Positions 361 to 54,283 of a stretch of DNA of 64,000 nucleotides are shown here, in pieces (the first letter of the stretch is position 1; each line of letters begins with the position of its first letter). The notes below the pieces were generated by a model that was given only the letters and a program-made list of their open reading frames with translations, searched no databases and had not been told where the DNA came from. The translations under genes were made by a program, and so were the position numbers. The stretch spans positions 4,139,966 to 4,203,965 of the forward strand of contig OY987252.1 in the NCBI GenBank assembly GCA_963920765.1, in the 5' to 3' direction. The stretch is from Ulota crispa (lineage: Eukaryota; Streptophyta; Bryopsida; Orthotrichales; Orthotrichaceae).

Positions 361-2704
361 TCAATTGGAGGTCATCAAAGCACGATGCAATAAATTAATG
401 GCCCTTTGTGGTGGATATAATAAATCCAAATCAAGTTGCTTTTGCTTATACAAAGAAATATAAGATTTTCTTACATGATAAGTTGCATATGTCAATTTGG
501 TTTCTTTCATGTTTGTTTTAATGTTCACATAGCTTGACACCTTCCTTTCATGTTGAAAACACCAAAAAACATCATGTGACCCATGCGTTAAAACATCATC
601 AAGTAGTTCACCATTTCCTACAAAAAAGAACAACAACCACCTAAATCATTAAAATCAATTTAATAAATTTTATAGATTTTTATCTTATGAAACATCCAAT
701 CAAAATCATGTAAAGATAATAAGAATTGTACTTGCAACATGTTCCAAACTAGAACCATTTGGTCTGTACTTTTTTTCCCACTTAACTTGGTATGTAGAGA
801 AATATTTCCTTACAATAATTGTTGACTCAATAGTCCATCCATGACTTCAAGTGTAGCTAAAAAATAATTGAGAAACTTCAATCAAAATAAGACTTAAAAT
901 ATAAAGTTTGACCATCTTTTGATAATCCATTTGGTCTAGCACATAAGGTAAGCACCATTGTATAAAAAGAATAAACTCCTCCGCTTTCCAATATGCAAAT
1001 CTATTTGTAATACCATTTGGCCATCTGGCATCCAAATCTCTTGGTCTGTGACTACTATTTTCCACCAAAGCTTCTTCAAGAAGAGTAGTTCTAGAAGAAC
1101 AATCCTCTTTTAGTTTCAAAACATGTTTTTTGAATATGCATAGAGGTAAAATATGCATCATGTCATAAACTAAATCCAAGGATAGATTAGAACCGTATAA
1201 ATAGTACAAACGCCATAGTTTTGAAACACAGATAACACAAAGTTGTCTTGGATCCACCATTTGCAATTTATGTACCTAAAATTCACAATTATTAATTAAT
1301 AAATCCAACCAAAAAACAATAACAATAAAAATATATATTGTGAAAATAAAATTAAGCATTAATATATTTTTAAACTTCAAATATCAGAAAAAAATCACAT
1401 ACCTCAAAGATTAAATCTTTGATAGTGCGCAAGGGTGGTGGATAACATGTTTGTCTCTTATTATCAAGATAAACTACATGCTTTCCATATAAACATTCTA
1501 CCATTACATCTCTCCTGCAAGCATTGTAACCTTTGTCTTTCAACCCTCCCATTTTTGTTTGGGCTAGATGATCTCCAATCCAAAGCATTAACATTCCTTA
1601 TAATTTCACTTTTTCATCTTCTTCAACTGGTAGCTCCAAAGAAATGAAGTGAGAAAGATAATTGTATTTTACCACAAAACCTTCAATGAAAATTGACTCT
1701 AAATCTTGAATCAACGGCTCCAAGAATACTATTAGAATATTATTTTCATTATCTTTAATGATTTGTTTCGATGACGCAGGTATAAAAATTAATGTAATAG
1801 GTTCCAGATCATTATTTTTTCCTCCATTCAATACCTCCATTTCAACTGCCCAAGTGTCTTTAAACTTGGTAGTTGCCGTTAAAAATCCATCCCAATGCCC
1901 TGCTAATGCAAAATTTCTTGGATTTCCCTCAACACATCAACAACACACACACACAAAGTTAATAACAAAATTGTAATAAAAAAGGATATCCAAATAAAGT
2001 ATTAAAAAACTAAAAAAAAATTACTTACTTGAACATAAGACTTTTTGGAAATGATAGTTGTAGAACATGTGGGACAATCAAACATATAATCTTGAGTAGC
2101 TTCATTCTAACCCTTTAATAGTTCTTCACATGATGTTGGAAATGCACAAAACACCTCTCTACAATTTATATTACCACACTTCACCAAAATCTCCCATTGT
2201 TGGTGTGGATCCCAAAATGCTTGATAATCTTTAAATTTTGAACCATCCCATATTCTGGAACTAGAAGAAACCAAGTCACTAGAACTCACACCCTGCCATT
2301 CACTTTTATTTCTCCAATGCTCTAGAATTTCATGGCACTTTGTTCTACTATTGCAAAGTTGCTCTAAATCCCTTGCTATTGGTAATAATAAAAAGGACGA
2401 ATGTCTTTTTGTAAAGCATGACAAACATAATAGTTTTCCCCACACTCTTTGCAGTTTCTCCATAATTTTGGACCATTCTCACATTTGCACTTCACTACAA
2501 GAAGTCCTTCATAAATATCTTCATTGCTAGGAGTCAATAATCCTAGTGCATGCGGTGAATCAATACTTCTAGTACAAAGCCTTTACCGAATAGGTTTTGA
2601 CATCCCATGTTTTTCATAATCCATTAATAATTGATCATAGGAAGTTGGAATGTTCATATTTTCTCCGCTTGTTTTTGCCAAATTTTCAAATTTTCATAAA
2701 ACAA

Positions 2705-2975
2705 ACTTTTGAATGCCATATTCATTAAATTGGGAAAATGTGGTTCCCAAATTGAACCTCACCTTTAACCAAAAATGTTACATTAAACCAGATTCAAAGG
2801 TATTAGATTTTGCCTTAGCTACTAAGATTTTTTCCCTCGCAAATTCCTCCTCTTAGGTGAGGGCATGTGCACAAAAAAAAACGTTGCTTAAATCTAAAGC
2901 TGGGTTTAAGGCAATCACTTTAAACCTTTAGAAGTTCCAAATTCAAACATAGTTCCCAAATTAACAAATATGACA
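2705..2975. mobile_element. MITE with ATTAAATTGGGAAAA-type ends
   Basis: Its left end CATATTCATTAAATTGGGAA is matched in inverted orientation at the right end near 2950-2972 (AATTAACAAATATGAC). The interior is homologous to the element at 33781-34032, sharing the stretch around AAGATTTTTTCCCTC and the 'gagggca.gtg' segment followed by an A-run. It lies between coding blocks of the transposase remnant, either in a former intron or as an insertion. There is no coding capacity. Confidence 0.6.
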
Positions 2976-3427
2976 TTTTAGTCTTTTTGTATCTACATTA
3001 GTTAATCAAATCCAGTAATCAAAATAATGACCATTTTTAATTTAATCCAATATAATTAGCTAGAGGTTTAAAAATTCAAATCCAATATATCTACATCAAC
3101 AAATTTAATATAATTTTTTTATAAAAACATTACAAACTTCATATGAAAATTCAAAATCTTGTTACCTGCATGTGTAAAGAGTTTACCAATACTTGTAAAA
3201 TGAAAAGAAGTAGTAGGTTTTTTGAGAAAATACTCTTTTTATAATCTTCTTTTGAAGAGCAAGTGGAAGCTTATCAAAATCCATATCAAATTGAAGTAAT
3301 AATATTTGAGTTTTTATAGCAAATTCCAAAGTAGCATCAGTAGTGGCAGGTGTTGGAATCTCTCCATATACAAACTCTGTATCATAAGGCTCTTCATGTG
3401 AATTGTTGTCTTCAAAATCAGGTTCCA

Positions 3428-3580
3428 CACTAGAAGAAATCTTGCAATATACTACTGGTTCACGACCACTACAAATGTCCTAAACAACTCAATTTGATTG
3501 TAATTTAGTCATTGTATAGTTGTTTAGGACATTTGCAATTGTCATGAACCAGTTGTTTAGAACAAGTTTTTTTTCTAGTG
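3428..3580. mobile_element. 153-bp CACTA MITE, target duplication CCA
   Basis: The ends are CACTAGAAGAAA and, inverted, CACTAGAAAAAAAAC. Both flanks carry CCA (3425-3427 and 3581-3583), the 3-bp duplication expected of CACTA transposons. Most of the element is one inverted repeat containing AAATGTCCTAAACAACT on both arms. It interrupts the N-terminal reading frame of the transposase remnant: removing the element plus one CCA joins the minus-strand frames on both sides without a shift (...EEEMV then EPDFEDNN...). The insertion is therefore younger than that coding sequence. Confidence 0.88.
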
Positions 3581-3980
3581 CCACCATCTCTTCTTCCCAT
3601 GCCTCATGTATTGCTACATCATCAGCAACCAATTCCTCATGTACCATTGAATCATTAGCAACCAATTTATCACTTCTTACTTCTTCTAAGTAATTTGAAT
3701 CATCTCTTGCCTCTCGTAACTTTTTATGTTTATAACAAGTTGATTTAGACACTTCTTTTCTCCACAAGTAGGAGAGAAGCAACGATATTTCCTCTTTGTT
3801 ATGCCTATAGACTCTATCTGTATTATAAACAAAAAAATATAAAGTTAAATCTCCAAAATCTATTATCTATGAATCTAAAATCAAATTTAATCAATTGTTC
3901 TATGGTTTAGCAAACAAGATTCATAATCTTCAATACATCATATGATTTAATAGGCATATAAACATTGATATTAAATAAAG

Positions 3981-4387
3981 GGACAGACTAGGGAGACACT
4001 CCCCAGTTGCTAGGGATACACCCCCTATAGCCCAAACTATTAAATTTGAGATTATTATTACGTCAAAATAAGAAATAAAATCAAAAGAATATTTTAGTGC
4101 ACATCTCCATCTACAAGCATTGCAAACACATAACAAATATGTCTCATTTGCGACATGGTCAAGAGTTAAAACAAGTTATTCCTTTCCTTTGTAAGTTTAA
4201 CTCTTGACCATGTCACAAATGAGACATATTTGTTATATGTTTGCAATGCTTGTTGATGCAAATGTGCACTAAAATACAGGTTTGATTTTATTTCTTATTG
4301 TGACATAACAATAATCTCACATTTAATAGGTTGGACTATTGGGAATGTCTCCCTAGCAATTGGAAAGTGTCTCCCTAGTCCATTTCC
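3981..4387. mobile_element. 407-bp foldback MITE with AAATAAAG duplication
   Basis: Nearly the whole element is an inverted repeat: the arm containing GACTAGGGAGACACT is mirrored at the right end, and the segment around CTCTTGACCATGTC pairs across a short centre near 4180. AAATAAAG occurs directly outside both ends (3973-3980 and 4388-4395), an 8-bp duplication (8 of 9 bases if 9 bp). That length suggests the hAT or Mutator superfamily. Non-coding. Confidence 0.72.
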
Positions 4388-4618
4388 AAATAAAGCTCTA
4401 TTTACTCAATTAATTTGTCATTAATACTATTACAATTTGTGCAGTATTAGCCAACAATCCTCATGTTAACATCACTTGAAGTATAGCATGAGTGTCCTTA
4501 TTTGGGACAAATAGGCATAAGCTCATGTATTTTTTATTTTCATGAAAAATACAAAGCACAAAAATTATGTATTGGTAAACTCATCTTGCACATCTCTCCC
4601 CTCCCTATTGTCAGATTC

Positions 4619-4790
4619 TACTACATATCTGCATTTAGGTTGCTCCATAATAATTTCTCAACATTTCCCACTATGTAAATATTTACCAAATCTATAATAT
4701 CTTTGGTCAATAATTACTATGATAAACAATGGGTCAAGCGCGCAAACATGGATTGGGCGTAGCAACAAGCGCCTACTAATGGAAAACCCA
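4619..4790 (+). repeat. Left terminal region of the large CACTA element
   Basis: Collinear with 33011-33160: both hold GCATTTAGGTTGC, TTTCTCAA.ATTTC, GTCAATAATTA.TATGATAAACAA and GTAGCAACAAG.GCC in the same order and spacing. This is the left half of the miniature derivative. Confidence 0.75.
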
Positions 4791-7700
4791 AGAAAAACCA
4801 ATAGAAGCACAACAACTTTCTGTTGTTTTGATTAGTGGAATTTGAGAGCACACTACTTTCACTAATTTTTGTAGTAGTTGAAGCAGACAATTTTCATGCT
4901 TTGTTGGTTCAAACACTGGAAATGCCTTGAACATTTATGGCAGTGTATATACATAAGATTCTCTAGGTTGCTCTCTTTGCCATGCAAAGTGGTGCCACAA
5001 CCCCATTGTGTTCGTCCTTAAAATTTGGAGCTGGAAATTCTAGTTTTGAGTACAATAAAAAGTCTTTTCAAAGAAAGATCTGGCACCATAACACTGAAAA
5101 TGCCTGAAATTTTCCATTATTTAGGGAATGGTACATAATAATTTCTAAAGCATTTCACCTACTTCACAATTTTCCCTCTTGCCCCATAACACCTACTGTG
5201 CTCTTGACATCTAAACCTAACTTTGTTTATATACAAGAATACAGGAGCAGCCGCTTCTTACTATTTTGTGATGCAATGATGCCGCCATTTCTGCAAGTTC
5301 AAGTACTCAAATGAGGTTTTAATGCCACCTGGATAATAGAAAACAATTCAACATTAATTCACCTTCTCATGCATACTTAAATGACTAGATACACTACGTT
5401 ATTCTTTCAAATGGGAAAAAGATTAAATTATTCAACTTTTGCATTCACCAATTCACAATGATTTTTGGGGTATCTTTGTGAAATTATGTTAATTTAGTCT
5501 GCATTGGCAATGAACAATGAAACACAGCCCATAAGTTACCAAAAAGGTCACTCACTTAAAACAACATCTTCCTATAAATACTAAAGTCAATGTTTTCAAA
5601 ATGCAATTGACACTATTTCCCTCCACATCATTGTACAACTCGTATGGAAAAAACAAAATTCCTTGCAGACATTATTGCACTATTATTGTTGACATTAACA
5701 ATTGCACCGTCTACAAAAATATTGACGCAAGCAATATTGTACGGAATAGTACAGAGGAACAACAACAACCACAATTCATGGGTGCAGGGATATGGTTTCA
5801 CGGTTCTTATAGGAGTACTAAGGTTCAGGGTCCTGAACAAGACACTCTAGTATTTAGAGATACGTAGCGCCAAATGTAGTGCATTTAATCCATTTCTCCC
5901 GACAAATACTTGTACATCGGTTTGCATATTACATTGGAGTAGGAAAGACTTCAACAATGTCTTGTACAAGATGTCATTCTTCCCTCTCTAATGAATTGTA
6001 CAGAGTAGGCAAACAAAGACCAGGACATACAACAAGCTGAAATTGAGGTTCACATTGTACCCTCCACAGTCTATTTGTTGCCATCCTTGAGAAAATCCCC
6101 CATTCCTTGTCAATACATCCAGCCAACTAGCAAAGAGGGTGCCATTTTCCACTCACGCATACAATGTGGACGATATTAACACCTCATTGCGCCACTCATG
6201 CCTTACGCATGAATACTTCTCCAAAACTCCCCTAGCCCAAACTGTCATTCTTGTCCGTTTCTGCAAACACAGAAAATGAGCCCCAGAAGAAACAGCAGTT
6301 CCTAAAGTAGCAACATTTAAGCACCAAGCACTGCAGGAATTACAAGCACAGATAGTTGGGCCCAACTATGAAAGGAAATCCCTCTCATTACCTCATACAC
6401 CTTTGATCTCTCCAAATTCCATGTCCTCTCAAATCACAAGACGCAATTTGGTCCACTAGATACTTGATTCCTGAAAAATCAAAAATGTCATAGACAGAAT
6501 TATGGATGCATGAGATTATAATTAAGCAATACTATAATAATGTGCAATTTCTATCACGCCCACTTTGTTGCATAGAACTTTCATGTAAATCACATAGGAC
6601 CCTCTCAAATACATGACACAGTGACTGTTACCTACACCCACAATCAAATGACGTTTGTTACCATTACTCACTACCTAACAAGAACTTTGCATTAGGTACT
6701 CTTTCATTGGTCTCTTAAGCACTGCCCATTCATTTTGAATGTAATGACCACTCCCTTTCAAAGCACAGTTTTGATAGTTGTACACATACTTCACTCCATG
6801 ATTGAAGTTGCTTAATGTCCATTGAACCTTAACCCATAATAATTGGTTCACTCAAAAAATTACTAAATTTGTACACCACCAAAAGTACTCTCATCAACAG
6901 TTTCCAAAATGAATGCCAACTAATGACTCTGCTCACGCAACAAACTATCCTACTAGTGTTTCCCTTCTACATCAGCTCAGTCGCACTGAAAATGCAACAA
7001 GTCATACAGAAATGCCACATAAGCATTAATAGCTTGGTTCACTCCTACACGTAGCATTCAAAAAACACACATACACAGACTTCCCATTACCACCTCTTTC
7101 TTTATCAGTTACAGCATAACTTTGTCTGTCCCCTACAAGATCCCATAGCGGTTAATGAGAACCATTGTTAACATGCCATTTTTGTTCCTAAGTGAGCATA
7201 GACATCCTTTCAAAATCTAGTTGTCAAAATGCGTTATTTATTAAATTGGGAAAAAGTGATATTTTGGGACTTTTGGATTTTATGTTTTTTGAAGAGTATT
7301 CATTGAATACTCTTCAAAAAACATATAATCCAAAAGTCCCAAAATATCACTTTTTCCCAATGTAATGAATAACGGGTTTCAATCACTAATCAGCGAGAGC
7401 AACAACAACATCTTCCAACCTCCTTTGCTGTTTTGCAACATAATCTAGCCATGTCCAAGACATTGTTACTGCCGGCATCATTTCACTTTCTCATTACATT
7501 ATTTCCCATGAGGGTTATGTTTTTTGATAATGGATATTTCACAACGTTAATGCCTTGAATTACCAGTGACTCATTGATCTTCTTATACCGTATAGTAGTA
7601 GTGCATGTAGATAACAATGATGGATAAGAGTGACTACTTCTCATTAATTTCCGCATTGCTAATTTAAATATGACATGATCACAAATACCATTGCTTTTGA

Positions 7701-9360
7701 AGCTCATCTGCTTTCCCATACTCTCATGACATCATGTTCCAAAACTCCAAATTCCTTGACGCAAGAAAATACATCACCATTGTTTTTTGCAGTGTTTTGT
7801 CAGCAACCGCCCAATTCTTGCCCAGATCTGCTCCAAAAGAGGCAAACAACAACAAAAAGCATCAGAATCCACATTCCATCAATATGTCACATTAAAGTAT
7901 GCATGCATTTCTCATAAACTAACATACAAACATGATTAGCTTTCAATGCAATAGTGCCATCTTACCGAGTTTGATAACTCCAATATACGCAAATGTCTGT
8001 AATTGCATTATCATAACGACCACAAGTTCTCACTGGACGGACAGCCTCTCCTTCATCATACAAGTTGTATTAGGCAATACCTTATTCCGCATAACTTCTT
8101 GATTGATACAGCATCACCCTTTGTAACCAAATCCTTAATGAGAACATCATCACTATATTCTTTTTCAAATTTAATGGAGTGCTACAAAAATAGCCTTCAC
8201 TTTTGCATCACAATATCAAATGCCAGAATCCTCTAAACTAGTATGTCACGTACACTAATCATTCTCATGGAAACTAGTAAGTCTCTAGCAATTCTAGATA
8301 TGGTGAACCAGCTTCTGCAAAACTCATTTAGCAATGTCAATATTTACTTACCACGCAAATTTAAGCACTTCAGTCAAGATTGAGATTGCTCGTCAACATG
8401 AGCTTAAAGCAACACACATCATGAGAGGCCCCTTCCCGCTTGCTCCTTCTAACTGTCGACACTCATATCAACACTCCACCTCGTCATCTCACCATACTGC
8501 TTTGGTACTGCATTGCTTTACTCAGAATTTGATGTCATGTTCTTACACTACTGTCTACACATTCATGTCCCCCACATCATAGACCGCCAAGATGACTACG
8601 GCTTCAATAAAGTACAATCTTGCCTTTGTAAGTCACCGAACCATCAGTCTTTAAAACCTTTGCCTCCCCTTGGCAGCCACCCTTACATACTAGTCAGTTC
8701 TTAGAAATGCCAATATGAAGATTTGTAATAAGTTCAAATTCCACATCAACTCTTTATTTTTAAATGCAGTCCCTGTTCATAGCCCCTCATAATTGATTAT
8801 TGACATACGTAAAATAATATTTACCTAGCAGTTTCAATATGACAATCATGTTTGCAGAATAGAGGTGATAACCCAATGGAATCATACATTGCACTCACAC
8901 TCCACAACAACAAAATACAAATCACACTCACACAACATGATTATTTGCAAACTACAAACCTCAAATTCACAGACATCTTCCGATATCCTTTTTATCTTAC
9001 TCCATATTTACAATCAACATCTGCTACATTTCTTGTTCATGATTTCATGCAAGATTATACTGTATAGCATTTCATATTCAATATTACAAAAATTGACACA
9101 CATGTGTATATATCATAGTACCTGTTGCTAAACGCTACAATACTGCTTCTCTAGAGTAGGTGGTACCACACATACTGCATCAACTACACTTCTGCTACAC
9201 TGCACTCCTTCACCAACGCCCCTTTTCAGCAAAGCATAGTACCTTTGTCATTCCCACCTAATGATCTCCATACAAGAAAAATAAGGTTACTAACATGAAA
9301 CTACTGCGTATCATTGCAAAAATTAAAAATCCAATAAGGCTTTCACTTGCTATTCTTCTT
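4791..9360. other. Left subterminal region, no convincing gene
   Basis: About 4.5 kb between the left end and the 3' end of the TNP2 remnant. The plus strand is visibly poor in G and rich in A, C and T. Short reading frames here (for example 5601-5867, 8334-8582 and 8865-9131) are low-complexity Ser/His/Thr/Leu-rich sequence expected of C-rich DNA, with no domain. Long non-coding subterminal regions are normal for CACTA elements. One short foldback element (7232-7374) is inserted. Confidence 0.5.
7232..7374. mobile_element. 143-bp near-perfect palindromic MITE
   Basis: The arm starting CGTTATTTATTAAATTGGG runs through AAGTGATATTTTGGGAC to GAAGAGTATTC and is mirrored almost base for base to 7374. 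A second copy of the same palindrome lies at 41090-41230. The outer motif (ATTAAATTGGGAAAAA) is shared with the longer MITEs at 2705, 33781 and probably 21225 and 26386, so these form one superfamily of ends. Confidence 0.75.
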
Positions 9361-12300
9361 GGGAATAGTCTTAATCCTCCTCAAAGGATTCTCCAATGTC
9401 TTGATCATACATCGCAATTTCCTCTTCAGTTGCTTCTACGAGCACTTCATTGATACTGATGTGTCAAGCGATTTGAATGGGCGATGTCTAAAATTCCTCA
9501 CCTACAAGCGGTGCACATAGTCCTGCAAACTCTGCATTCTCTCCCATTCTAAACATCTCGGGCTCCTTTTTGCAGTCATTTGCACTATCAACTCTGCGCC
9601 CTTGGACCTCATTACGTAGGACTACTTTCCAACTGGGCTCCTCTACAATGTCTAAAAAGAAAACTTGATCATAATGCACAGGGAATGCAAATGATTTGTA
9701 GCCAATGGTACACAAGAGTTGAAGTTGGCCAAGGTGAATCCCAAGTTGTCTTTCTTCACAATTGCATTTTTGCCTCTATAATTTGCCTTCACCCAATCAC
9801 ATACTAGCAATAGAGTACAATGTCTTCCATAGTTCAACTCAACTATCTCCAATATCTGACCTATGTACTCAAGGGATGTATTCACTAGATTTGAATTGCG
9901 TTTGCCAGATTGGCAAGGTCTTCAAAAAAAATAACCAACCGGAATCACATGTCTTAGTAATATTTTCCTCAGCACATTTCACTCTATAATGGTATCCATA
10001 AGCATACATACTTTGGAATTTTTGTGCAACTAAAGATGGTGCTGCTGAGGAGTCAACAACATTATTGAGAACTAGTACTCCATTGCTTTGAGCATTTCAA
10101 ACCTCTCTTGTAATCCACTCCAAGAAGGGTGGAATTTCCTCCATATCACTAGGGTACGACATCCACCTATGCCCAACTCTACGCGAATGTGCACTTCAAA
10201 ATTGCGCTCTTGCAATAGTTTTGCTCTGCCAAAGCTCCCCGTATGTGCTTCACCATAATCCCAACCAACCCTTATAAATTAAAGTCATGTCTTCAATATA
10301 TAAATAGTGAAAACAATAAGTGCAACTAACATTCAGATAAGAACAATGTACACATATACATTCAATCTCAAATTGGCCGCTATTAACGTCATAAATTTCT
10401 TAGTTTTTGATTATTATTCTTTGTCACTCAAACATTCTATTCTGCAAGTAGTATTGCTATATTTGTTTTACTGCTGTCTTTCTATAGCAATACTGACAAC
10501 CAAAACCGGTAGTATCAAACACATACTCACCTCCAATAAGGCTCTAGATGAGCGGCATTATCCAAAACAAATTTGTGCATTGCATTACGTAACTCCACTG
10601 ATAAAGTCCTCTTTTTCTCCTTCCCCTCCACAATCTTGTCCAACATTACTTGGTCCTCTTTGTCATCCCACATTCTCCTAGAAGTAATGTTGTGATCAGA
10701 TATATACTCAGTAATAAACCCCAGTGCCTCTTCAGTTTGGTAGCCACAAGCAATGCTTCCTTCAAGTTTAGCCAAATTTTTAACAAATCCCTTTAACGTC
10801 TTGAAATAGCGCTTGTAAGGATACATCCATCTGGTGTGGATGGGCCCTAGCAAGAAAAGCTCTTCCACTAGATGGTTTGGCAAGTGAGACATAATATTGA
10901 AAAAGGAAAGGGGCATTACCTTCTCTAACAAACACATGGTCTCTGCACATTCTTCCATTAGCTGCTCTTTACTATCATGATTGACAGTTTTAGCACAGAT
11001 TTTCCAAAACACTCTACTCAATAGAATTATTGCTTGAGCTAGAGATTTGTTAGTAGTTTGAAAACACAAGGGCAAAATTTGGTGTAGAAGAACATGAAAA
11101 TCATATGATTTTAGACCACTTAACTTCCCTTTGCTGATTTTAGAATGTAAAGCACTGGCATAATGAGTTGGAGTAGGCAAGGACTTCAATACAGATAAAA
11201 CCTTCTCATTAACCTCTTGAGATAACACATACGGTGCATTTGGCATATAATGCTTGTAAAGATGACCAGAAACTCTTTGCAAATGAAGATTAGGTCGAAT
11301 TTGTCTTGCCTGCATATTTGCCCTAACTGCAGGTGAATCTTTCTCCCCGAATGTTGTCTTCAAAATGATTTTGCAAAAATTCTTCTTACAATGCATGGGA
11401 TCAAGACCATGACGCACAAGTAACTTCTGCAACAATGTATACAACAAATTCATGAATAAAAATACTTACACTCATAATGATAGGTGATATTCTGTTTGAA
11501 AGACAAAATACATTAAGAAAAATTTCAATAACCACAACTGTTTCAGCATAAATAATTTTTTTTAGATGCCACTAACTACCTCAAAAATGGGCTCTGCAAT
11601 ACACGGTAAAATGTACACCAAAAACAATGTTTGCTGCATTTCTTGGGTTCACTATGCTTTCTTCTAAAACAATTCATTAAATTTTTTTAAACATTTCATC
11701 CACATTGTCATAGTTATCACCACGTACTCAATTACACAGACAACTCATACACTTTCACACTTAGGCAACAAAAAATTACCAATAATAGTAGGTTCTGCAT
11801 TTGCTAATAATTACTAAATTCTAGCGCATTGCAGGACAAAAATTTACAAGCTGCATTAAAGCTACCAAATCAAAATCAAAACTTCTCTTATTAGCATTAC
11901 AAAGAAACTAAGTTAGAAAGCGCATGATGCAATCTAGCGTAAATCTTCAATAAGATTCAAAGCCCTGATTATAAATCCGGCCAAACCGCCATCACTGTCA
12001 TATAGGTAGAAAAAAAGCACTTTCAAATCAAATTTGTTTCTCATAGCTTCCTGAGGATAAACTATTCTTTTGTCCACTTTTGGTCCAATAGCAAAATATG
12101 CCTTTGCTCACACAATTCTATCAATTATTTTTATTTTTTTCCATTTTATTCATGAGTTATCAATTATCATAATTTTTGAATTAAAGAACTCATTATGACT
12201 CTAAGTTTGTCCTCAACCATTTCCCTAAACATTAAACATGAAAATGTGAAAACATAAAATATGTTCACCAATTTAATAATAATCCAAGTAGTAATGTTGC

Positions 12301-14662
12301 ACATGAGCAGGTTCATTCAAAAACACTTCATACTATTTTGGAGAAAACTACAATATCCTTTACATCAGAGTATTGGAATTTCAAGTCCGGTTTACACCTG
12401 AGTAATAATTTTTTTGTTTTAAAAAATAATAGAGAAATAAAGCAGCAAGTACTCAATACACAACCTATTCAATTCTCCATAGTAAACAAACATCTACTCA
12501 CTGTCCTTTTATTAGAAACATAGCTTAGATAACAATAATTGTGCCACTGCATTTATTAGATTTTAAATAAGTGACTAGACCACCATTCAAATAGAAATCC
12601 AATATGGATGTGAAATTCAAAGAAACTTACAATCCAATATGGGAGGTCATGGAAAATAGACTTTCGTTTAACATCATGGAGTTTCACAGGGTCGTCGTTG
12701 CAATTCTGGACTCTACCATCTCTTAGGAATACCTCCCTTGCATGTCCCCATTGCATAACCTCATCTCTTGTTGGCCTCTGGGGAGCCATGTGCCACTCCT
12801 CAAAATTGTTGACTACTCCTTTTGCTTTCCAAAATCAATGATTACCATCCAAATACCTCTTGCCACCTAGATACACCATTTTCCCTAGAAGTTGTGCAAA
12901 CTCGGCACAAGTCTCTGGACCACAAAGGGGGCAGCCCTTGTAACCGTGGACTTGTTGCCTTGATAGAAGCCCATATGCTGGAAAGTCATTGATTGTGCAA
13001 ATCAACATAGTTCTTAACGCAAACCGCCTCTTACCCACTAGCTAGAAAATATTCACCTCCGGAAAACCTCTCCACAACGTCAACAGATCCCAAATTATAG
13101 GACCTAGAAAAACATCAATGTTTTCAACATGAGCGGCTTTTGGTCCAGGAATGAAGAGAACCAATGAAATAAAGAATTTCTTTGTCAGTAGCCAAGGCGA
13201 GAGATTGAATATTTTAATCAGGAAAACCCATGTTGAATGCTTAATAGCATTATTCTTGAAAGGTATAATTCCATCCCTAACAAGTCCAAGTCTTAAATTT
13301 GTCTTCACTTCTATAAAATCTAGATACAACTGATCCACAGTTTTCCACTGCACACAATCTGCAACAGATCTCATCATTCCACCGTTGGATTTGTGACTAT
13401 CATACCATGTCATGTAGTTTGCAACTTCTGGACATTTGAACATTCAAACAATATACTTGATGAAGTCAAAGTATTGAACAACTCTTTGTGGAACTTTATT
13501 TGATCCTGCTAGATAACAACTCTCTTGGCAAATCGGGCACTCAATTAGGTTTTCATGTTCCCCTTCATATAGTATGTGGTTGTGTGGGCAGCAGTGCACT
13601 TGGCGATGCTGCAGTCCCAATTTCATAAGCATACTCTTTACCTCATACGACGTTCTTAGAAAGCAATTTGAACTCGGAAGAAGGTCTCTAGCAATCCATT
13701 TCAACAATCCATCTACAAAAGTTTGCAGATTAGAGTACAAGCTGCATAGGGAATACAAGACAATTGCGCATTGCAATTGATTTTGAGTGCTACCTTCATA
13801 CACCTTTTTTGTGGATTCTTGTACCAAATACTCCAAATTTGCTTCATTGCAGTTTTGGTCTTCCTCCGCGTTTCTGAAGTCAAACTCAACATGATTGTCA
13901 TCGTCCAGAACCTCTTTGTGAATGTTATCCACCTTACCAAAGGCGTCTCTGGCCATCTTGTCTACATCCACAGGGTTTTGAGGCGGCCATCTCAATTCTG
14001 CATTGGAATCATGTCTATCATTCTCATGATACAGCTCTCTTTCTCTATGCACCTGTCTTGCAGGACCCCTAACATTTTGGCCATCGACAGTCTAATGCAA
14101 TGCAACTCATATACCATTAGAAATGAACTCAAGGTCTCCTAGCAAATTGGAAGTAAATATTTTCATAATAAATTAATTCTGGACAAACACATCCATATAT
14201 GCAATGCTGTGAAAATCTATGGGAGGCTGATATATAAATTCAGACTATGCAACACACTATGTATAGAAAGTTCAAGTACAATTAAAAAGAGCAACGTAGA
14301 TATATAACAACATTATAGGTGAAAATTCATGTTCTTGTAAGGTATATGTATTTTATTGTTATGTAGAAGTAGCAACTTACCATAACAAGATAAATCAAAA
14401 ATCAATTACATCCATGCCTAATGTGATGTCTGGCAACAATGTCCACTTTCTTCAATAATGCGTCACTGCATTGTTTGCACGCACAAGGATAATCAGCTAA
14501 CTTCAGCTTATTGGCAATTGATCTCTCTATATGATAAGCAAAGCACTGTTAGCAACGCTGCATGGTGCTAGTCTTAAGAATTGGGCGGATATCTCCATTG
14601 TCGTTGAAGTAATAGCACACTTCTCCTTCACTATCAAAAGTATAGAATTCAATATACTCCAA
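9361..14662 (-). pseudogene. TNP2-type CACTA transposase, decayed
   Basis: Transposase of an En/Spm-like element. Minus-strand order: a transposase-associated domain (about 14600-14410; YPCACKQCSDALLK, then HHIRHG) with a GT donor at 14409; a second exon from about 14090 with LGLQHRQVHCCPHNHILY and ECPICQESCYL; MFKCPEVANYMTWYDSH; LVRDGIIPF (family LxSDGFxPF); IPGPKAAHVENIDVFLGP; INDFPAYGLLS; KRKSIFHDLPYW with donor GTAAGT at 12630; an intron of 1,204 bp; an exon from 11426 with RHGLDPMHCKKN; the DUF4218 region ending LLGPIHTRWMYPYKRY and EGSIACGYQTEEAL; a donor GTGAGT at 10530; then a DUF4216 region (about 10250-9480; EYIGQILEIVELNYG, DQVFFLD). In-frame stops include TGA 13444-13446, TAG 13042-13044, TGA 12835-12837 and two TGA near 10190 and 10090. 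A frameshift lies near 9900 and another near 9710. The family is certain and the copy is non-functional. Confidence 0.93.
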
Positions 14663-41538: not shown

Positions 41539-41950
41539 GGGGAATCAAAATGAGCACACACCCGATTTAATATATGCACACCCCACAGGGGTAAATTTTG
41601 GATTTTCACCATCAAAAAGTTTACTTTGAAACTTCAAAATTCAGATTTGTATTTACAGACCTAGGTTTAGTCTACAACCATAAAAGAGGGTACACTTGAA
41701 CAATGCCCAATGATAAAGTTTAGCTAGAGGGCACATTATTACTTTTACCCTTATTTGTAGAAAAACTTAAGTTTATTCATTGGACATTGTTCAATTGTAA
41801 CCTCCATTTTCACTCTAGACTAAATCAAGGTTTCTAAATCCAAATCTGAATTCATAATTTTGAAATTGAACTTTTTGATGGTAAAAAGATATAATTTGCC
41901 CCAGCAGGTGCGCATATATCAAACTCGGGGTGTGTCCATATCAATCATCG
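41539..41950. mobile_element. Mutator-like foldback MITE, copy 1
   Basis: Long inverted repeat with a block that reads 'gacctaggtttagtctacaacc' on the left (two blocks) and its mirror on the right around GACTAAATCAAGG. The core landmarks (AATTTTGGATTTTCACCATC, 'gaacaatgcccaatga') match the better preserved copies at 44498-44908 and 53879-54283. No clean target duplication is visible. Confidence 0.65.
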
Positions 41951-43711
41951 TTCTTGTTTTTTATAACATCATGAACACTAAAGGTGCGATATCAATAAGA
42001 TCAATTTGAAAGATTGAAGGTGCAATATTACAAAGATCATTGTGATTTTAGTACTATGATTGTCATGGAAATTGGATATGTGATATTAAAGAAAGGAAAA
42101 TCTTAGATTTTAGAGGTGCTTTTGATTTTAGTAATATGGTATTTCATTTAAATTTGCCATTTTGTTCAATCACACTTTAACTAGTTTGAGAAATTTGTTT
42201 CAAAAGTATTCATTAACTATAATTCAATGATACTATAATTTTCAAAATCACAAGCTTCTACACTTGTTCTTACTACATTAATTAAAATATTTTATTAAAG
42301 ACAAAGATTTACAAAGATTTAGATATCACTCTCAAAATCTCATACAAATCAATAACATAATAGTCTTCAAAACAAGTTATGTATATATTAGCACTTGTTC
42401 CTATGTTCAAATTTTTCAAAATTTGAAAAGGTTAACAAAATAACGGCTCCCATTCTCAAAATCTGGCACAACATGCACTACCTTCAAAATTTTGCTAACA
42501 TCTACCACTAAATAATCAAGCGCATTGTCCCTAGGTCATTGCAATACTAGGCATCGTACTCTATTGTCAAATTTGACTTCTTCATACATTTGTATCAAAC
42601 ATAGTTCCTTAAGAATATTTTTGCCTCCATGGTCTTGCATATTGCTTTTGAATAGAAATCAAAGTTGTCCATAAGACTTCCTCTCCGATTCATTATCGCC
42701 CTCCATCTTCAATGAAATATTGCTGAACCACTCTTTCCCATGAAAATTTGAGGTAGTGCAAGCAAATGTTGGTGTCTTTTCACCTCTTACATTTTGACTT
42801 GGATAAAGTGCCAATGACTTGTAAACTTGTAATATTTGCATCCATCTATTGTTCAATAATTTAATATTAAACAAAAAAAACATATTTTATTGTAATTAAA
42901 GAAAAAAATCAATCTAATCTCTAAACATTTTGAAATTAAATGCAAAGTTAAAGGGTTTATAGAATTACAAACCTTGCCACCCTTCAATTGATATTGATTC
43001 ATGTATGTAGTCAAACAAGTCTTCAGATTAGTGAGAATGTTTACTTGCAAAACTTTGAGAATAATTTGTTGCTTTTTTGATGCTGCATCTCTAACATTGA
43101 ACTTGTTGCTGAATTTATTTCTCCAATATAAATATGCAACATTCTCAAGTTCAAATTAACTTGAAACCTAGCCATTACATGATTTCCTGTTTCCAATGTT
43201 TGCCATTCAATAACGTGATTAGCTATGTATTTGAATAATTGTAATTCTTTAAATTGCACAAAAAATAATTGTATTGTTATTTCTTTTAAAAAATACAAAG
43301 CACTAAACAAAATCAAAAGCAATGAATAAAAAAAAATGGAATCACTCACTTTGTCCAACATGGCGTTCTTCCTTGTTGAATGAAATAAACTATCATTTCC
43401 AGATGACATTTCTTGCAATGCTTCAAGTCTTCAATTATACTTCACAATCTGATCAAGGAAATTTTTCTTATTGCTCATTCGATATCTTGTTCAAATCATA
43501 GCTATGTATAAGTACTCATACATATTTGAATTATATTCAATTAGGGCTCTTGATCAGCGTATTGAATGCGTATAATGCTTCATGTTGTGCACTTCAATCA
43601 AATTAAAGTTTGATTTCTACCAACTTGATATGTGAATCCTAAATGAATCCACAATCCTACAACATGCCCACAAATTGATTTAAAACTCAATAAAATTTGA
43701 AGATAAATCTA

Positions 43712-43731
43712 CATATATATATATATGTATA

Positions 43732-43785
<54 letters not shown>
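43712..43785. repeat. (TA)n microsatellite with TGTA interruptions
   Basis: About 70 bp of alternating TA with a few TGTA steps. Small frames of alternating Tyr/Ile on both strands here are artefacts of the repeat. Confidence 0.97.
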
Positions 43786-43786
<1 letters not shown>

Positions 43787-44497
43787 ACTTTAAAATCAAC
43801 AAATTTGAAAATGCACATGCACATATTCTCATCTTTGCATGTAGTTGTCCATTGTTGCCAACTGTTGTTTGTTGTATTCTTTCGTACAACATGCTAATTC
43901 ATACCAGTGTAAAAAATTAACAATAGTTTCAATAAAGAAGTTGAGCAACACTTCCAACATGCAAAAGACAATCACCTGCAAAATTGATACAATTCAAATC
44001 TTAAAAAATCTTCATGTCATTAATACGGTAAATGATGAAAAATGAGCATTCTATAAAAAATATCATTAAAACTTAAGATACTTTTGTTACAATTATACAT
44101 TATATTAAACCATTGACTGATCTAGACTCTTACATAATTAAGCCACACAAGCATAATTAAAAGAAATAAATCACTTGGGATAAAATAAAATTTCCAGTTT
44201 GTTCACCCTCTATCTACCTACAAAGTGAATAAGTAATTAAAACAGAATATAACAAAATAAGTGTCCAAACAAGTCACAAACAAATCATGCGCCTTCTGCA
44301 CATCAGCTCGTATTTAGGATGTAGTTTTTCATGGAATCCAAGCATATTTTATAATAGAATGAATTCAAATCCCCACTTTCCTTTTAGAAAGAATGCTTGC
44401 TCAAAAAGGGGTCATGTCATCTTAGATTAGGCATCAATTAATCCTACAAAAATTCATGTCACTTCTAACATATTTCACATCTTCCTATTACTTTTAC

Positions 44498-44908
44498 GTA
44501 ATTGATAGAGACACACCAAGGGGTTCATATGTGTAACTTCCCCCTGGAAGCAAATTTTAGATTTCTACCATAAAAAAGGTGAATTTGAAAATTTTGTATT
44601 TAAATTTGGACTCTCAGACCTTGATTTTGTCTAGAACCATTAAAAAAGTTTGCAATTGAACAATATCCAATGAAAAAGCTTAGTTAGTGGAAAAAAAAAT
44701 TATTTTAATTTTTGTTTGTAAAAAAAGTAAGCTTTTTCATGAGGTGTTATTCAATTGCAAACTTTTTTGTGGTTCTAGACTAAGTCAAGGTTTGTGAGTC
44801 AAAATCTAAATTCAAAATTTTCAAATTTAGCTTTTTAATGGTAGAAACAAAAAATTTGCTCATGCGGGTTCACATATATCAACACCCGTTGTGCCTCTAT
44901 CAATTTCC
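44498..44908. mobile_element. Mutator-like foldback MITE, copy 2 (411 bp)
   Basis: The ends GTAATTGATAGAGACACACC and, inverted, GGAAATTGATAGAGGCACAA enclose arms of about 190 bp meeting near 44705. The flanks are TACTTTTAC (44489-44497) and TACTTTTAG (44909-44917), an 8 of 9 match consistent with the 9-bp duplication of Mutator-like elements. It is inserted in sequence resembling the nearby 165-bp repeat and within the span of the Plavaka-like remnant. Confidence 0.78.
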
Positions 44909-45719
44909 TACTTTTAGTTTTTACATTCAGATTATTCCTCACTTCCCCTCACTTCTCAATGTTTGCTCAGAAGGGGGTTATCACCTGTGCTATTTTTTTT
45001 GTTTATTGATTTTAGCTTTACTTGCCAAAGACATGGGTTGTAGATTGGATTTTTTGCAACCTACCTTCATTTTTAGTAGTAGGCAAGTTGCAATACTTTC
45101 TCATTTAGTTTAATATTTTGTCTACAAGTTTTTTCTTGCCTAAGAAATTTTGATTACATAGATGGTAGCTTATTATGTTATAAATGGCAAATTTTGAGTT
45201 TAGTTCATATATTCTTCAATTATGTGAATTGGTGATGTCTAACATCAATCTTCCATAGTTGTTTTAAGGTTTAGGGATAACGCTAAACTTGAACATTTGC
45301 AAAGTGTACATTGACAATTTTATCAAGAAGCCACTAAAAAACTAATTAGTACATTTGTACAAGCATGAAACCCTACCATGACACAATAACTACAAGTAGT
45401 CATTTGAGGGAGGGCAAGTGAATAAAAAGCACATTTACAATTTGCATTATAGCTAGGTGGGGGGAATCAAATATGATTGATAGCTACTAAAGCTGTCTTA
45501 ATATGAGGTCCTATCAATGACAAGGGAGCAAGTCAAATTGCACCTCACCTCGAAGGCATCTTTCCTTTTGAAATTTTGATTACTTTTTAAAATTTCCTCT
45601 TTGTTTCTACAATAGAGTTTTAGCGCAACCAAATTTTAGATAGAAATTTTGCTAAACTTAGCCAAAGTTTTTACCGCTAGTCATCATGTGTAAAGCCTAA
45701 ATTACTTACTTAAAAATCC

Positions 45720-46985
45720 CTATGACTTCCCTTCATTAGCCTATGGGTTCACTTTCAAATCTCAGTCCTTTTCCATACTTTCAACTAATAAATTGAAAAT
45801 CCTCCCCCCCCCTTTCCTTTGTTCTCATTGTTTATTCCAAAAGCGCCCATCACGAAAAAGGCTCCAATCATATCCAAAAAAATTGTGTGAGTTCCTTTGG
45901 TTACTCTAGGGTTAGCCTGCAAGTTTGAGTTTTTTTTGCACAATCATATATAATAAACTTGAAAGTACATCACTTCCCCTTCCTTACTGTTGGTTCAAAA
46001 ATGACTCATCACGTAAAAAGTGTCACTTACACAAAAATTTGTGTGACTTTCTTAAGTTTAAGTAAAAATATATTGCAAATTTAAGCCCTTCTGCATAGTC
46101 TTAGCTACTCAATTTGACGTTACCCCACTTCCCCTTAGTAATGCTTGCTCAAACATGACTCATCATGGAAAAAGTGTCACTCAATTACACAAAAATTTGT
46201 GCAACGTCCTTAAGTCACTCTACAGTTCTCTTGCAAATTTCAGCCCTTTTTTTTCACTATTGTAGCTAATACATTTGAATTAACCCCCACTTCCCTCTTC
46301 CTTCCTAATGTTTGCTAAAAAGCGACTCATCACAAAAAAAGTGAGACTATATGACATAAGAATTTGTGCAACTTGCTTAGGTTTAGGTAAGGTTATCCTA
46401 GAAATTTCAAGATTTCTGCAAAGTTCTAGCTATTACATTCAAAATTACCCCACTTCCTCCTTCCTTCTTATTTTTTACTCAAAAATGACTCATCGTTGGA
46501 AAAGCGTCAAATAATTTAAAAAAAAAAATTGTCCAATATCCTTAGGTCAGTCTAAAGTTGCCATGCAAATTTCAGCCCTTATGCACAATCTTAGCTATTA
46601 AACTCTAGTTACACCCACTTCCCCAGCCTTCTAAATGTTTTCTCAAAAAAAACTCAACATGGAAAACCTATCACTTAATTACACGAAAGAAAATTGCGAC
46701 TTCTTTAGGGCACCTTTAGGTTACCTTGCAAATTTCAGCCCTTCTACACAATCTTAGCTATTAAGCTTACATTTGAAATCACTTCCCACATGACTTTCAA
46801 AAAGATTGTTTGTTCATAAAGAAGGTCATAACGGAAAAAGGAGTCAATCTACTTGATTGACTAATTCATCTAAGTTCCTTCAATCATTATAGGTTTTGCG
46901 TCCAAATTTCATATTTTTGCAGTGTTTTAGCTATTAAATTGAAATCAACCCTCACTTCCTCTTCAATAATAACGTTAACCAATTT
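45720..46985 (+). repeat. Diverged tandem array, period about 165 bp
   Basis: Landmark blocks recur in the same order seven to eight times: CCCACTTCCCCTTCCTT (near 45800, 45970, 46125, 46286, 46449, 46613, 46782, 46952), then GCTCAAAAATGACTCATCA, then ACACAAAAATTTGTG, then GCAAATTTCAGCCCTT and CAATCTTAGCTATTAA. Spacings are about 155-170 bp. Isolated relatives of the unit occur at 44370-44450 and 44935-44990. No coding role is apparent. It splits the Plavaka-like remnant between its 'LLHQ' block and its C-terminal part. Confidence 0.85.
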
Positions 46986-49570
46986 CATATGATTTCAAAG
47001 GGTTCTCTACATGTCAAACAATAATCCATAAATTCCTGCAGTTGTTGGATACTAGCATAAGCTTTGTTTGCACGGATGTTTTAATGACTTTTTATTTTTT
47101 CCATACAACAAATATAATAGTATATAAACTTGTTACAATTGGACAATTGAAATTTGATGATACTTGCATGATTGAGCGGTGCTCAAAGGTCGCAAAGTTT
47201 GCATTTGATGTGAAATAGCCACCCTATCGCTCCCAAGCACTCAAAACTTAGACATGCGTGCAGAGACTTTGATTACAAAAAGTCTTCTATCCAACTCTAG
47301 AATTAGATTAGGGCTGAGTTCTTTAGAAATATCTTGTACTATGTCCATAAGTGTCTTGAAAACACCAAAGTCTGCTTGGTGTAACATATCAACGTTGATT
47401 ACAAGATAAAAGTTGCCAAATGCAGTGTCTCTTCTCGCAAAATCCCATAATGCACACTGTATACCAAACATACATTGCATGAGGTCATCACATCTTTTGA
47501 TCAAATGAACTTTTTTAATGTATATCTCAATAATAATAAAAATAGTCTGAGAACTAAACAAATTACAAACTACTTCATAAATACTACACAAATACTGATA
47601 TATAATATGCACATAGCTATTAAACAAGTATATTAAATTTTTGATACCAAAATTTAAAAAAATACTAAAGAAAATACTAGACTAACTATTTATGAACAAA
47701 AAATCTATCAAAAATCTATATGATTGACCAATTTTTGTTATTTGTAACAAATGGATGAAAAACATGAATATAATTTTAAGTTCAATTGACATGTGCTATG
47801 TCTACCATGGGTTGTGATAGATAGTCTCACCGCCACTGGATGAAAAGAATGCTCTTTAGAAAGCTTTGTTCTTGTTTTTGAGTTAGCTCCAATCATTTCC
47901 TTGTAAATTGCTTTCATTGATGACTCAGTCCAATATCCAATATTTGGATCTCCAACATTGACTAATTCATTTGCTCGACACATGCACATGCTACATGGAT
48001 GCTGACATTTGTTTGTGTCATAAGTGCAAGTGACCTACTCATTCATTTACAATTTACAATTTAGTATACAATTATCAATATCAATTACATCAAATCAATG
48101 CAACAACCTTGCCAACTTATAAGAAATTTAACATTTTCAAAAATCAAAATAAAAAAAAAACTTTTCAACATCAATTACCTTGCATGATTCTTCACGATCA
48201 CACACATAAGCATATAGTCTTAGGAAAACTAGTTGTTCATTGCCAAATGAATCAATCAATGTTATTCATCTGCAGATAAACAAACACAATTTACTTATGA
48301 GTTTGGATACGGATGTATACAAAAAATATTATAGATTTTCAACAATTTTATGTATGATCTTACATGCTTAGTTCTGTAAATGCAAACTCAAACCCTTAAA
48401 TACATTTCAAAAATTTGAATATCACTTACTTCTTACTCACATGTTTTAGTGGTTTCAATACGTGTGAAAGACAATCTTGAAATGCTTGTAAACGCTGAAA
48501 GGAACTTTGTCATGGGATATTGAACTTAGGCAAAATTGCTCATAAACAATGTCCTTCAAGAAGAAACCAACCTTCACAAGCTATGTTTCTAATAGACAAA
48601 TCAATTGGATGTCTAGTTATTTTATTATCCTTTGATAATGTTGTCTTATCATTGTGAAAAATCAATGGAGCAATGATACCATGACCATGCTATTGATTTA
48701 CATGTTCTTGTCCACATTCAAAAACAAAATTATATATATTTGACATTGGGGATATAAAAAATAATAACAAGTGATCAACCAAATCTTTTAACATTGCACA
48801 TCATACTAACAAATATCATATTTTCATATAAATTAAATTAAATAATTCAATTTTTGATTTATTTTCAATAGACTAGCAAAAGATGTTATTCTTACTTGCA
48901 TTGAATGCCACCAATTCCTTGTTGCAAGTGTTGAATACTCTTTCAATTCGGGATTTGCAACCGTAGATGTAGGTAGCATTGTGAAATTTTCAGCTACCAC
49001 AAGTGACAAAAATAATGACTCCAATGCAGTCAATGCCTCGCAAAATCGCAATACAAGTCCTCCTATGCTCTCCGTTCTCCATCCATCTACTTCATTGTAG
49101 AGAGCCTTCTCATGCTTCTCAATGTTGTAAGCTGATTTCATTAATAGATCTTCAACCTTGAAATTTGGATGAAGTAAAACCTTTGAAAACAACTTGTTTA
49201 TAGCACTATTGCTCAAGCCCTCTCCTTTTTTTATTGTTCTAACTTAGTTAACAAGACTAAAAATAGAATCATATACAAATGTTGGAATTTTGGTTTGAGC
49301 TAATTCCTCAATTTCAACATCTAGTAAATCAAAAAAAGGAGGCTCGTTCAATCCATGGGGTTCATTAGACTCATGAAGTGCAGGTGCTTCAAGTTATTGA
49401 TAAGGCTCACTAGATTCAGCATGATCTATTGTCACAAATGTAGATCTCAAAAAGTAGCTACGTTCTTGGAGTGGCCTCTTGTTTCCTAAACATGATTTTT
49501 GATGGGTAGACAATGCACTTCTATGACTAAATGGGCGTGCACCACATATATCATAAGTATATTCCTCCAT

Positions 49571-52566: not shown

Positions 52567-52770
52567 TAGGAGCAGTACATATGTTATCCAAATATAAATA
52601 TGGTGTAAAGTATCAGACATCCTCTTTCTAAGTGCCCCCATCAACATTGCCTACTTTTGCACATTGTGTCATTGACTAACAAGTACAAAGAAATTGGTTA
52701 TGAGGAAGTGATAGTTTTAGGTGATTGCATGACAATTTACATTGTCCCGTCTCACTACTGTAAGCTAATA

Positions 52771-53127
52771 CTCCCTCTATCCCAAAGTGATCTTCCCGTT
52801 ACACAACATGTTATAGATCAAGCTAAAAAAGAACCATTTATCAAAAAAAAAAACCCTACAAATAGAGTTTGAAGTCCTCCTATTGTTCTAAAATTTTGAG
52901 TTTCAAATTAGCTTTCAAAGTATGGTTTCAAAGTGCTTGAAAATCGAATTTATGAGGCATTTTTGAAGAGCACCAGTGGCCACTCACTTGATGGCATGGG
53001 ATTGGTTAGCATGCCCATGCTTTTGGACTACATGCAAGTGTTGCTAGCTCCCTTCCTCTTGCAACAAGAAGATCATTTGGGACACTAAATAAAAATCAAC
53101 GGGAAGATCATTTTGGGGCAAAGGGAG
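52771..53127. mobile_element. Stowaway MITE, copy 2, inverted relative to copy 1
   Basis: CTCCCTCTATCCC at the left and CAAAGGGAG at the right, flanked by TA (52769-52770 and 53128-53129). The interior is the reverse complement of the copy at 37699-38056 over its full length (for example the block ATGCAAGTG.TGCTAGCTCCC). Length 357 bp. The left arm has diverged more than the right. Confidence 0.9.
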
Positions 53128-53878
53128 TACCAGATTTGGCAAGTAGTGGGACCTTAGAATGAGTACTGCCAAATGTGCTATTAGGTTACAATATGTAACC
53201 CTTGTCATCGCCCATGGTAGTTTGGAGTATCTTAGATTTTGCTTGAAAGTGAACAAAATGCCAGCATTTTGATCCATCTTATCAAATTTCTCTGAAGTGC
53301 AACAATACAAATTCAAAGTAGACATGTTATAGATCACATGGGAAAAGAAATCACAACAATATCATTTATGGATTGAAAGATTATAATATTTGATCAAGAG
53401 GGTGTTAAAGTTGCAAAATTGATTTGAAGCCTTTCAATTTTCTTTTTGCATTTCAAACCTAAAATTCAGGGTACCAAAAAAATATGAGTATGTAAAGTAT
53501 AACGTGCCAAACCCCAATCAATTTACGGCTTCTCAAAATCTATTCTATAATTTTTTAAATTGAAATTTTAATGTGATTTTTTCTCCAAGTTCTAGTGTAC
53601 TTGAAGCTCATTTCCAAGAGCCGTCAACACTAGACAGTGAAGATTTGCAATGGACACCCTTGCACAGAATCTAGAATAGATAAATCACTTTAATTCATTT
53701 TCAAAATCAGACTCCTAATGCTGAAACTAGACTTCAATAAGAGTTTAAAAATAATAATAATCACTAAAAAACATCTTGTAGAAAGATTGTGCATCCTTGA
53801 ATAAAATTCACAAAAGCCCGATTTGGGCCCTTTGGGCGGTGAGGGGTTAAAAAGTCTTGAAGTTAGTATTATGAGCAT

Positions 53879-54283
53879 GGGGATTGATATGTCTACCACA
53901 CCTTTTCAGCTATTCTACCACACCCCAAGGTAAATTTTAGATTTCTACCCTCAAAAAGCTGAATTTTAGAATTTGGAATTTAGATTTGGATTTAGAGACT
54001 ATGATTTAGTCTTGCATCATGAAAAGGTTGTAATTGAACAACATCCAATGAAAAAGCTTATCATTTTTATGAACAAAAGCAAAGTAATACTTTTCCCCCG
54101 AGCTGAGCCTTTTCATTGGGTGTTGTTCAATTACAACTTTTTTTATGCTAGACAAAATCAAGGTCTCTAAGTCCAAATCTGAATTCCAAATTCTCAAATT
54201 CAACTTTTTGATGGTAAAAATCTAAAATTTACCCCGAGGTGTGGTAGAATAGCTGAAAAGGTGTGATAGACATATCAATCCCC
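53879..54283. mobile_element. Mutator-like foldback MITE, copy 3, TATGAGCAT duplication
   Basis: The ends GGGGATTGATATGTCTACCA and, inverted, GGGGATTGATATGTCTATCA begin arms of about 190 bp that match closely to near 54080. A perfect 9-bp direct repeat TATGAGCAT flanks it (53870-53878 and 54284-54292), the hallmark of Mutator-like elements. It is the best preserved of the three copies in the window, hence the youngest. The small frames at 53973-54170 and 54006-54203 are the two arms read in opposite directions. Confidence 0.92.

Follow-up and report, generated by a model that had tools for sequence, protein, structure and literature searches.

Which mobile element lies on the minus strand of a 64,000-nucleotide stretch of the moss Ulota crispa (contig OY987252.1; the whole stretch is called the window below), and how long has its family resided in the plant line? 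The original prediction had placed a multi-exon Plavaka-like transposase there and had suggested either an under-described plant lineage or a horizontal transfer. Plavaka transposases are DDE enzymes: they bind the two ends of their element, cut it out and reinsert it, producing a short duplication of the target. Our analyses make it very probable that the locus holds a Plavaka DNA transposon, a member of the CACTA/EnSpm-related (CMCT) group, and that this copy in the moss nuclear genome is old and inactivated. Plavaka has been described from fungi and placed with EnSpm (PMC12730594).

The transposase locus and its decay

Nine colinear exon pieces on the minus strand code for the Plavaka transposase, starting with the ATG at 49570 and finishing with a stop codon that ends at 42416. 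The joined exons matched the Pfam hidden Markov model of the Plavaka transposase (PF18759) with E=4.1e-22 and 79.3 bits, passing its curated cut-off of 26.3 bits, and the identity first read from the order of the motifs was thereby upheld. Exon 2 exceeded the cut-off by itself (E=9.8e-7), exons 3 and 4 together scored 21.7 bits (E=1.4e-4), under it, and the remaining four of the seven submitted proteins, namely exons 1 and 5 and parts of exons 7 and 9, had no Plavaka match in Pfam. The exons had been chosen by eye, so a tblastn search with a Ceratodon purpureus protein (P0001, M758_UG213700) served as an independent check. P0001 matched the window in eight colinear stretches covering residues 137-890 (E from 4.8e-21 to 3.4e-5), and the colinearity extended to its last residue. 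By tblastn, a Klebsormidium nitens protein (P0002) was also colinear with the window copy across most of its length. Elsewhere in the window (outside 41-51 kb) P0001 had no match at E<1, and the TNP2 models PF02992 and PF13960 had none at E<=10 in the Plavaka locus. All the blocks that had been named were present on the minus strand in the order given: DKTTLS..HPIDLSIRNI (~48650-48580), HPCSMCMC (~48001-47978), LHQADFGVFK (~47384-47355) and KVVHVVPDF (~42484-42458). The parts of the gene are as follows.

48896..49570, minus strand: exon 1, with the ATG and a degenerate finger-like N-terminus, reading on to NWWHSMQ; two in-frame stops; P0001 at 31% across 136 columns (tblastn); a GT donor follows CAATGCAA.
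48435..48689, minus strand: exon 2, IIAPLIFHNDKTTLS..HPIDLSIRNI, with the proposed first catalytic Asp; two in-frame stops; 3′ boundary approximate.
48179..48259, minus strand: exon 3, ..LYAYVCDREESCK, with the proposed second catalytic Asp; start approximate; PF18759 match jointly with exon 4; spanned by a match of the Sphagnum compactum protein P0004 (48265-47822).
47829..48034, minus strand: exon 4, VTCTYDTN..HPCSMCMC..SFHPVA, with the C-x2-C motif; PF18759 match with exon 3.
47164..47456, minus strand: exon 5, CALWDFARRDT..VDMLHQADFGVFK..GGYFTSNANFATFEHRSIMQ; one stop and one frame change near 47223; P0001 at 48% across 82 columns, E=4.8e-21 (tblastn).
43976..47163, minus strand: large intron 5, ~3.2 kb, containing a tandem array as well as a palindromic repeat.
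43832..43975, minus strand: exon 6, VIVFCMLEVLLN..MDNYMQR, preceded by the ~3.2 kb intron; 3′ boundary approximate; P0001 at 34% across 50 columns, E=3.4e-5 (tblastn).
43350..43658, minus strand: exon 7, ..EVHNMKHYTHSI..NSNMYEYLYIAM, with H-x3-H and the proposed catalytic Glu; four in-frame stops.
42970..43250, minus strand: exon 8, a weakly conserved linker that probably contains a frame change; both boundaries approximate; not supported by homology in its own right.
42416..42850, minus strand: exon 9, ..FHGKEWFSNISL..YLVVDVSKILKVVHVVPDF..RYFVNLFKF-stop; two internal stops; 5′ boundary at ~42845-42850; P0001 at 28% across 163 columns, reaching the common C-terminus (tblastn).

Most of the junctions set were GT..AG; positions are approximate for the 3′ boundaries of exons 2 and 6 and for the 5′ boundaries of exons 3, 8 and 9. 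The C2H2-like finger that had been proposed at the N-terminus held as a weak likeness; its first cysteine is missing in the window copy, and Pfam found no finger.

Plavaka is recognised by D, D and E residues with C-x2-C and H-x3/4-H between the second D and the E, and the order described suggests which residues would be catalytic here (PMC12730594). We aligned eight sequences (alignment A2): the window read, the reads of L010, L015, L014 and L011 from the same genome (the last two partial), P0001, P0002 and a fungal protein of Ganoderma leucocontextum (P0003). The Asp of SDxT was found in seven of the eight rows and the Asp of CDHPE in six, while both Cys of C-x2-C, the first His of H-x3-H and the Glu were kept in all eight and the second His in seven. 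Every D, D, C-x2-C, H-x3-H and E position is retained in the window read. Element B, a relative treated below, has Asn in place of both Asp, and P0001 as annotated lacks the stretch bearing the second Asp.

This full set of proposed catalytic and metal-binding residues could speak for a domesticated, host-serving gene derived from Plavaka instead of a dead transposon. However, exons 1, 2, 5, 7 and 9 of the window copy are interrupted by 11 in-frame stops in all, and a frame change lies near 47223, with a second one probable in the poorly supported exon 8. The copy is therefore a pseudogene, and domestication, to which we give practically no credence, is refuted for this copy.

The tandem array in intron 5 covers 45826-46940, with a period of ~155-167 bp and pieces ~60-88% alike. 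The palindromic repeat occurs three times in the window (41588-41902, 44549-44860 and 53879-54283), with arms of 98-146 bp that are 76-88% complementary, and looks like a foldback or miniature inverted-repeat transposable element family; the copy at 44549-44860 is the one sitting within the large intron.

Relatives in the same genome and their ends

The genome comprises 274.8 Mb in 157 contigs, and the window lies on C11 (6.3 Mb). Nine of the large contigs (C1-C11) measure 6.3 to 41.4 Mb, and matches reach past 17 Mb on C6 and past 14 Mb on C10; the smaller contigs measure 16 to 112.5 kb (19 of 146 sized). P0001 gave at least 64 exon matches in this genome, a lower bound since the scan scored 51 of 145 candidates, and PF18759 gave 10. 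When the matches of both were merged within 10 kb, at least 26 Plavaka loci were obtained, the window copy included and eight of them resting on a single exon match. They are distributed over nine of the 11 large contigs (C1, C2, C3, C4, C6, C7, C8, C10 and C11).

This distribution refutes the possibility, raised along with the original prediction, that plant and fungal sequences were combined in the assembly through chimerism or contamination. Such a join is hardly conceivable: nothing was found in its favour, the locus and the window are similar in base composition, and the genome that carries the loci also has a moss LEAFY gene and a contig bearing plastid genes. The LEAFY protein matched PF17538 with E=8.4e-51, and its DNA-binding domain was identical in 163 of 166 residues to PDB chain 4bhk_A (389 bits; next chain, 298 bits), FLORICAULA/LEAFY homologue 1 from the moss Physcomitrium; the host is therefore a moss. 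The plastid genes are on C157 (112.5 kb; GC content of the first 9 kb, 22.8%), and C156 (104,638 bp) presumably resembles moss mitochondrial genomes in size.

Several subfamilies were distinguished in the 21-row tree described below: (L010, L013), (L014, L048, L026), (L009, L015, L030), (L012, L021), (L024, L025, L031), (window, L011, L046) and L037. Alignment breaks, which we read as introns, lay near P0001 residues 340, 406, 505 and 552 in the window copy, L009, L010, L013 and L015; no break near residue 505 was seen in L014 and L048.

The boundaries of complete elements were obtained from the first of these subfamilies. Element A (L013 with its upstream flank; C8:4185816-4195362, 9,547 bp) and element B (L010 with its flank; C7:15820086-15829568, minus strand, 9,483 bp) were 94.1% identical over their full length, across 9,340 aligned bases, and differed by 435 transitions and 112 transversions, an excess that would fit the decay of methylated cytosines. 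Their similarity stopped within 5 bases of 5′-CATCT(G/A)GATTTAGG and ..CCAAAATCCAGATG-3′, termini that form imperfect inverted repeats of ~25 bases and are flanked by 2-bp target duplications (GT for A, AT for B). Element C (L056 and L053; C3:4135804-4139059, 3,256 bp) has the same terminal bases as A and a GT duplication, and is 76-85% identical to A in the five longest aligned pieces. It lacks A positions 2329 to 9117, transposase included, and is thus an internally deleted, non-autonomous copy. Ends of the form 5′-CATCT..AGATG-3′ with a 2-bp duplication were therefore present in all three elements with both ends seen, and L055, a fourth copy seen at its right end, has the same right terminus. 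Complete, bounded Plavaka elements, with ends, target duplications and a deletion derivative, are hereby extended to a moss.

In active relatives, one multi-exon DDE-type transposase would bind the CATCT..AGATG ends; the element would be cut out and then pasted in elsewhere, duplicating 2 bp of the target, and internally deleted copies such as the 3.3-kb element C could be moved in trans. The window copy may once have borne the same kind of ends. Upstream of the transposase, the first 4.9 kb of A and B (loci L049, L013 and L050, L010) may be regulatory or hold captured DNA; three open frames tested there in A had no significant Pfam match.

Two CATCTAGTTTTAGGGCCCC sites on C1 might have bounded an element of 23 kb, a reading that was ruled out. 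The ten bases outside CATCTAGTTTTAGGGCCCC were identical at the three places fetched (L051, L052 and L054), so the motif is internal to another, unrelated repeat. Consequently, the 52 end-pattern matches in the genome, versus 10 in a reversed control, are no copy count.

Several observations weigh against reading the window copy as a Plavaka transposon of this kind. No recognisable ends or target duplication were found for it, either in a scan for the relatives' ends (12 kb upstream and 6 kb downstream) or in a scan for 16-base inverted pairs starting with CA and having a 2-bp duplication (9 kb upstream versus 4 kb downstream). The CATCT..AGATG ends come from a different subfamily of the same genome, and the pair L048/L014 (89.9% identity over 4.5 kb) showed no clear inverted repeat or duplication. 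The search of the host for intact copies and ends, proposed at the outset, was answered for the ends by the three relatives above; no intact copy was recognised among the copies read. The plant and algal sequences scored 79-147 bits against PF18759 (P0001 85.1, P0002 101.8 and P0004 146.7) versus 378.6 bits for the fungal P0003, which places the group far from the fungal core. The structure prediction for P0001 had a predicted local distance difference test score (pLDDT) of 32.7 and was not used, and a sequence search of the PDB with alignment A3 found no solved structure (best E 0.62).

Kinship and origin

In order to place the moss copies among wider kin, 5.8 billion proteins were searched with the window read, a 3-row alignment and an 8-row alignment; the search needs shared 5-residue words, and its last round scored the 7,994 candidates sharing most words. 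It returned P0001 (E=1.0e-75), P0002 (E=9.3e-65) and P0004 (E=4.5e-135), and the fungal P0003 was recovered with the plant profile (E=2.5e-28). The nearest named proteins were those of Ceratodon, Sphagnum and the alga Klebsormidium, and this word-based search returned no seed-plant protein. Because shared words are required, absence from other groups is weak evidence. A scan of viral and genome contig collections with P0003 for further outgroups gave no relative. P0004 is a fragment that represents a 35-member sequence cluster, and the Sphagnum family may accordingly be large or young.

Trees were drawn from 26 rows (22 loci and four proteins, one of them fungal), some of them, P0004 among them, under half filled. 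A 21-row tree drops L016, L017, L028, L041 and L045 (<340 residues), and a 19-row tree also drops P0003 and L046. In both trees the window copy grouped with L011 (100/100), joined by L046 where included, and this group then joined L010/L013 (94/96 and 99/97). P0001 grouped with L048, L014 and L026, within the diversity of this genome (100/100 and 100/99). P0002 and P0004 shifted between the trees, and the root was not settled. The nested position of P0001 fits an old residence and speaks against a recent transfer. If no moss-moss transfer is assumed, at least two Plavaka lineages would predate the split of this moss and Ceratodon.

These copies probably did not come from a fungus in recent times. 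A recent horizontal transfer of a fungal Plavaka into this moss, from a symbiont or parasite for example, could appeal to the family being best described from fungi (PMC12730594) and to the recovery of the Ganoderma protein. However, the nearest proteins are those of Ceratodon, Sphagnum and Klebsormidium, P0003 falls outside on a very long branch (~3 changes per column), and the Ceratodon protein lies among the copies of this genome, all of which makes such a transfer highly improbable; in this recent form, the transfer that had been suggested is disfavoured by the trees.

A very old transfer between a fungus and an early streptophyte, in either direction, with vertical inheritance in algae and mosses thereafter, is easier to entertain, if still unlikely. 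It would suit the patchy occurrence seen at this search sensitivity (matches in mosses and Klebsormidium, none in seed plants) and the elements called Plavaka in other eukaryotes, namely EnSpm-Plavaka in the green alga Auxenochlorella (PMC12633428) and the Plavaka giant repeats in Amoebidium (PMC11244446), which by description resemble the moss elements in being non-fungal and filed under Plavaka. Vertical descent with losses nevertheless predicts the same pattern, and a single fungal sequence cannot root the question. About as likely as not is an account in which Plavaka would have resided in the plant line since before land plants and charophyte algae parted, would have diversified into several lineages that mosses keep side by side, and would have disappeared from vascular plants; the family would then be eukaryote-wide, and its streptophyte branch would be set apart by ends and protein signatures of its own. 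Bounded elements in a moss make it testable whether the family arose in fungi or was inherited from old eukaryotes.

Comparison with described elements and neighbours in the window

Like fungal Plavaka, the moss elements combine a PF18759 transposase with D, D, C-x2-C, H-x3-H and E in the same order. Fungal PlavakaA has ends TGT..ACA and a 2-bp duplication, and PlavakaB has ends 5′-CATCA..TGATG-3′ and a 2 or 3 bp duplication (PMC12730594). The relatives of the window copy resemble PlavakaB in ends that begin with CATC and in 2-bp duplications, but they carry CATCT..AGATG in place of CATCA..TGATG. P0003, the one fungal protein compared, lacks CALWGFNGGDT and GGYF-S-ANFA-FEHRAVMQV, which are common to the moss copies and the alga, and the C-terminal F(V/L)N..KF common to the moss copies. 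P0001 and P0002 were 31% and 32% identical to the window read, over full length and most of the length, respectively, and P0004, over its available part, was 52% identical to the element B read and 45% to the window read. These Ceratodon, Klebsormidium and Sphagnum kin are known here as proteins alone, unnamed by their sources. TNP2-type EnSpm/CACTA elements of plants belong to a related transposase group in the wider sense, in a different Pfam family.

Judged from sequence, the group is a little-described streptophyte branch of the known Plavaka family, with its own ends and sequence signatures. No report of Plavaka in land plants was found among the titles and abstract openings listed for this family in an open-access library, and this, together with the related proteins of Ceratodon, Sphagnum and Klebsormidium, bears out the proposal of an under-described plant lineage. 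P0001, P0002 and P0004 do bear precomputed Pfam labels, so databases already flag such proteins. Moss genome annotation gains a family that may be overlooked when standard plant repeat sets are used.

The TNP2 neighbour that had been noticed in the window was confirmed as an EnSpm/CACTA remnant at 10530-14091 on the minus strand, of which 10530-13443 matches both TNP2 models (DUF4218, 10530-11465, E=9.5e-30; Transposase_21, 13045-13443, E=2.3e-25); the open frame beside it at 13447-14091 had no Pfam match. An inverted pair at 52762-53136, with 39-bp arms that are 82% complementary and hold CTCCCTCTATCCC, is reminiscent of a Stowaway element.

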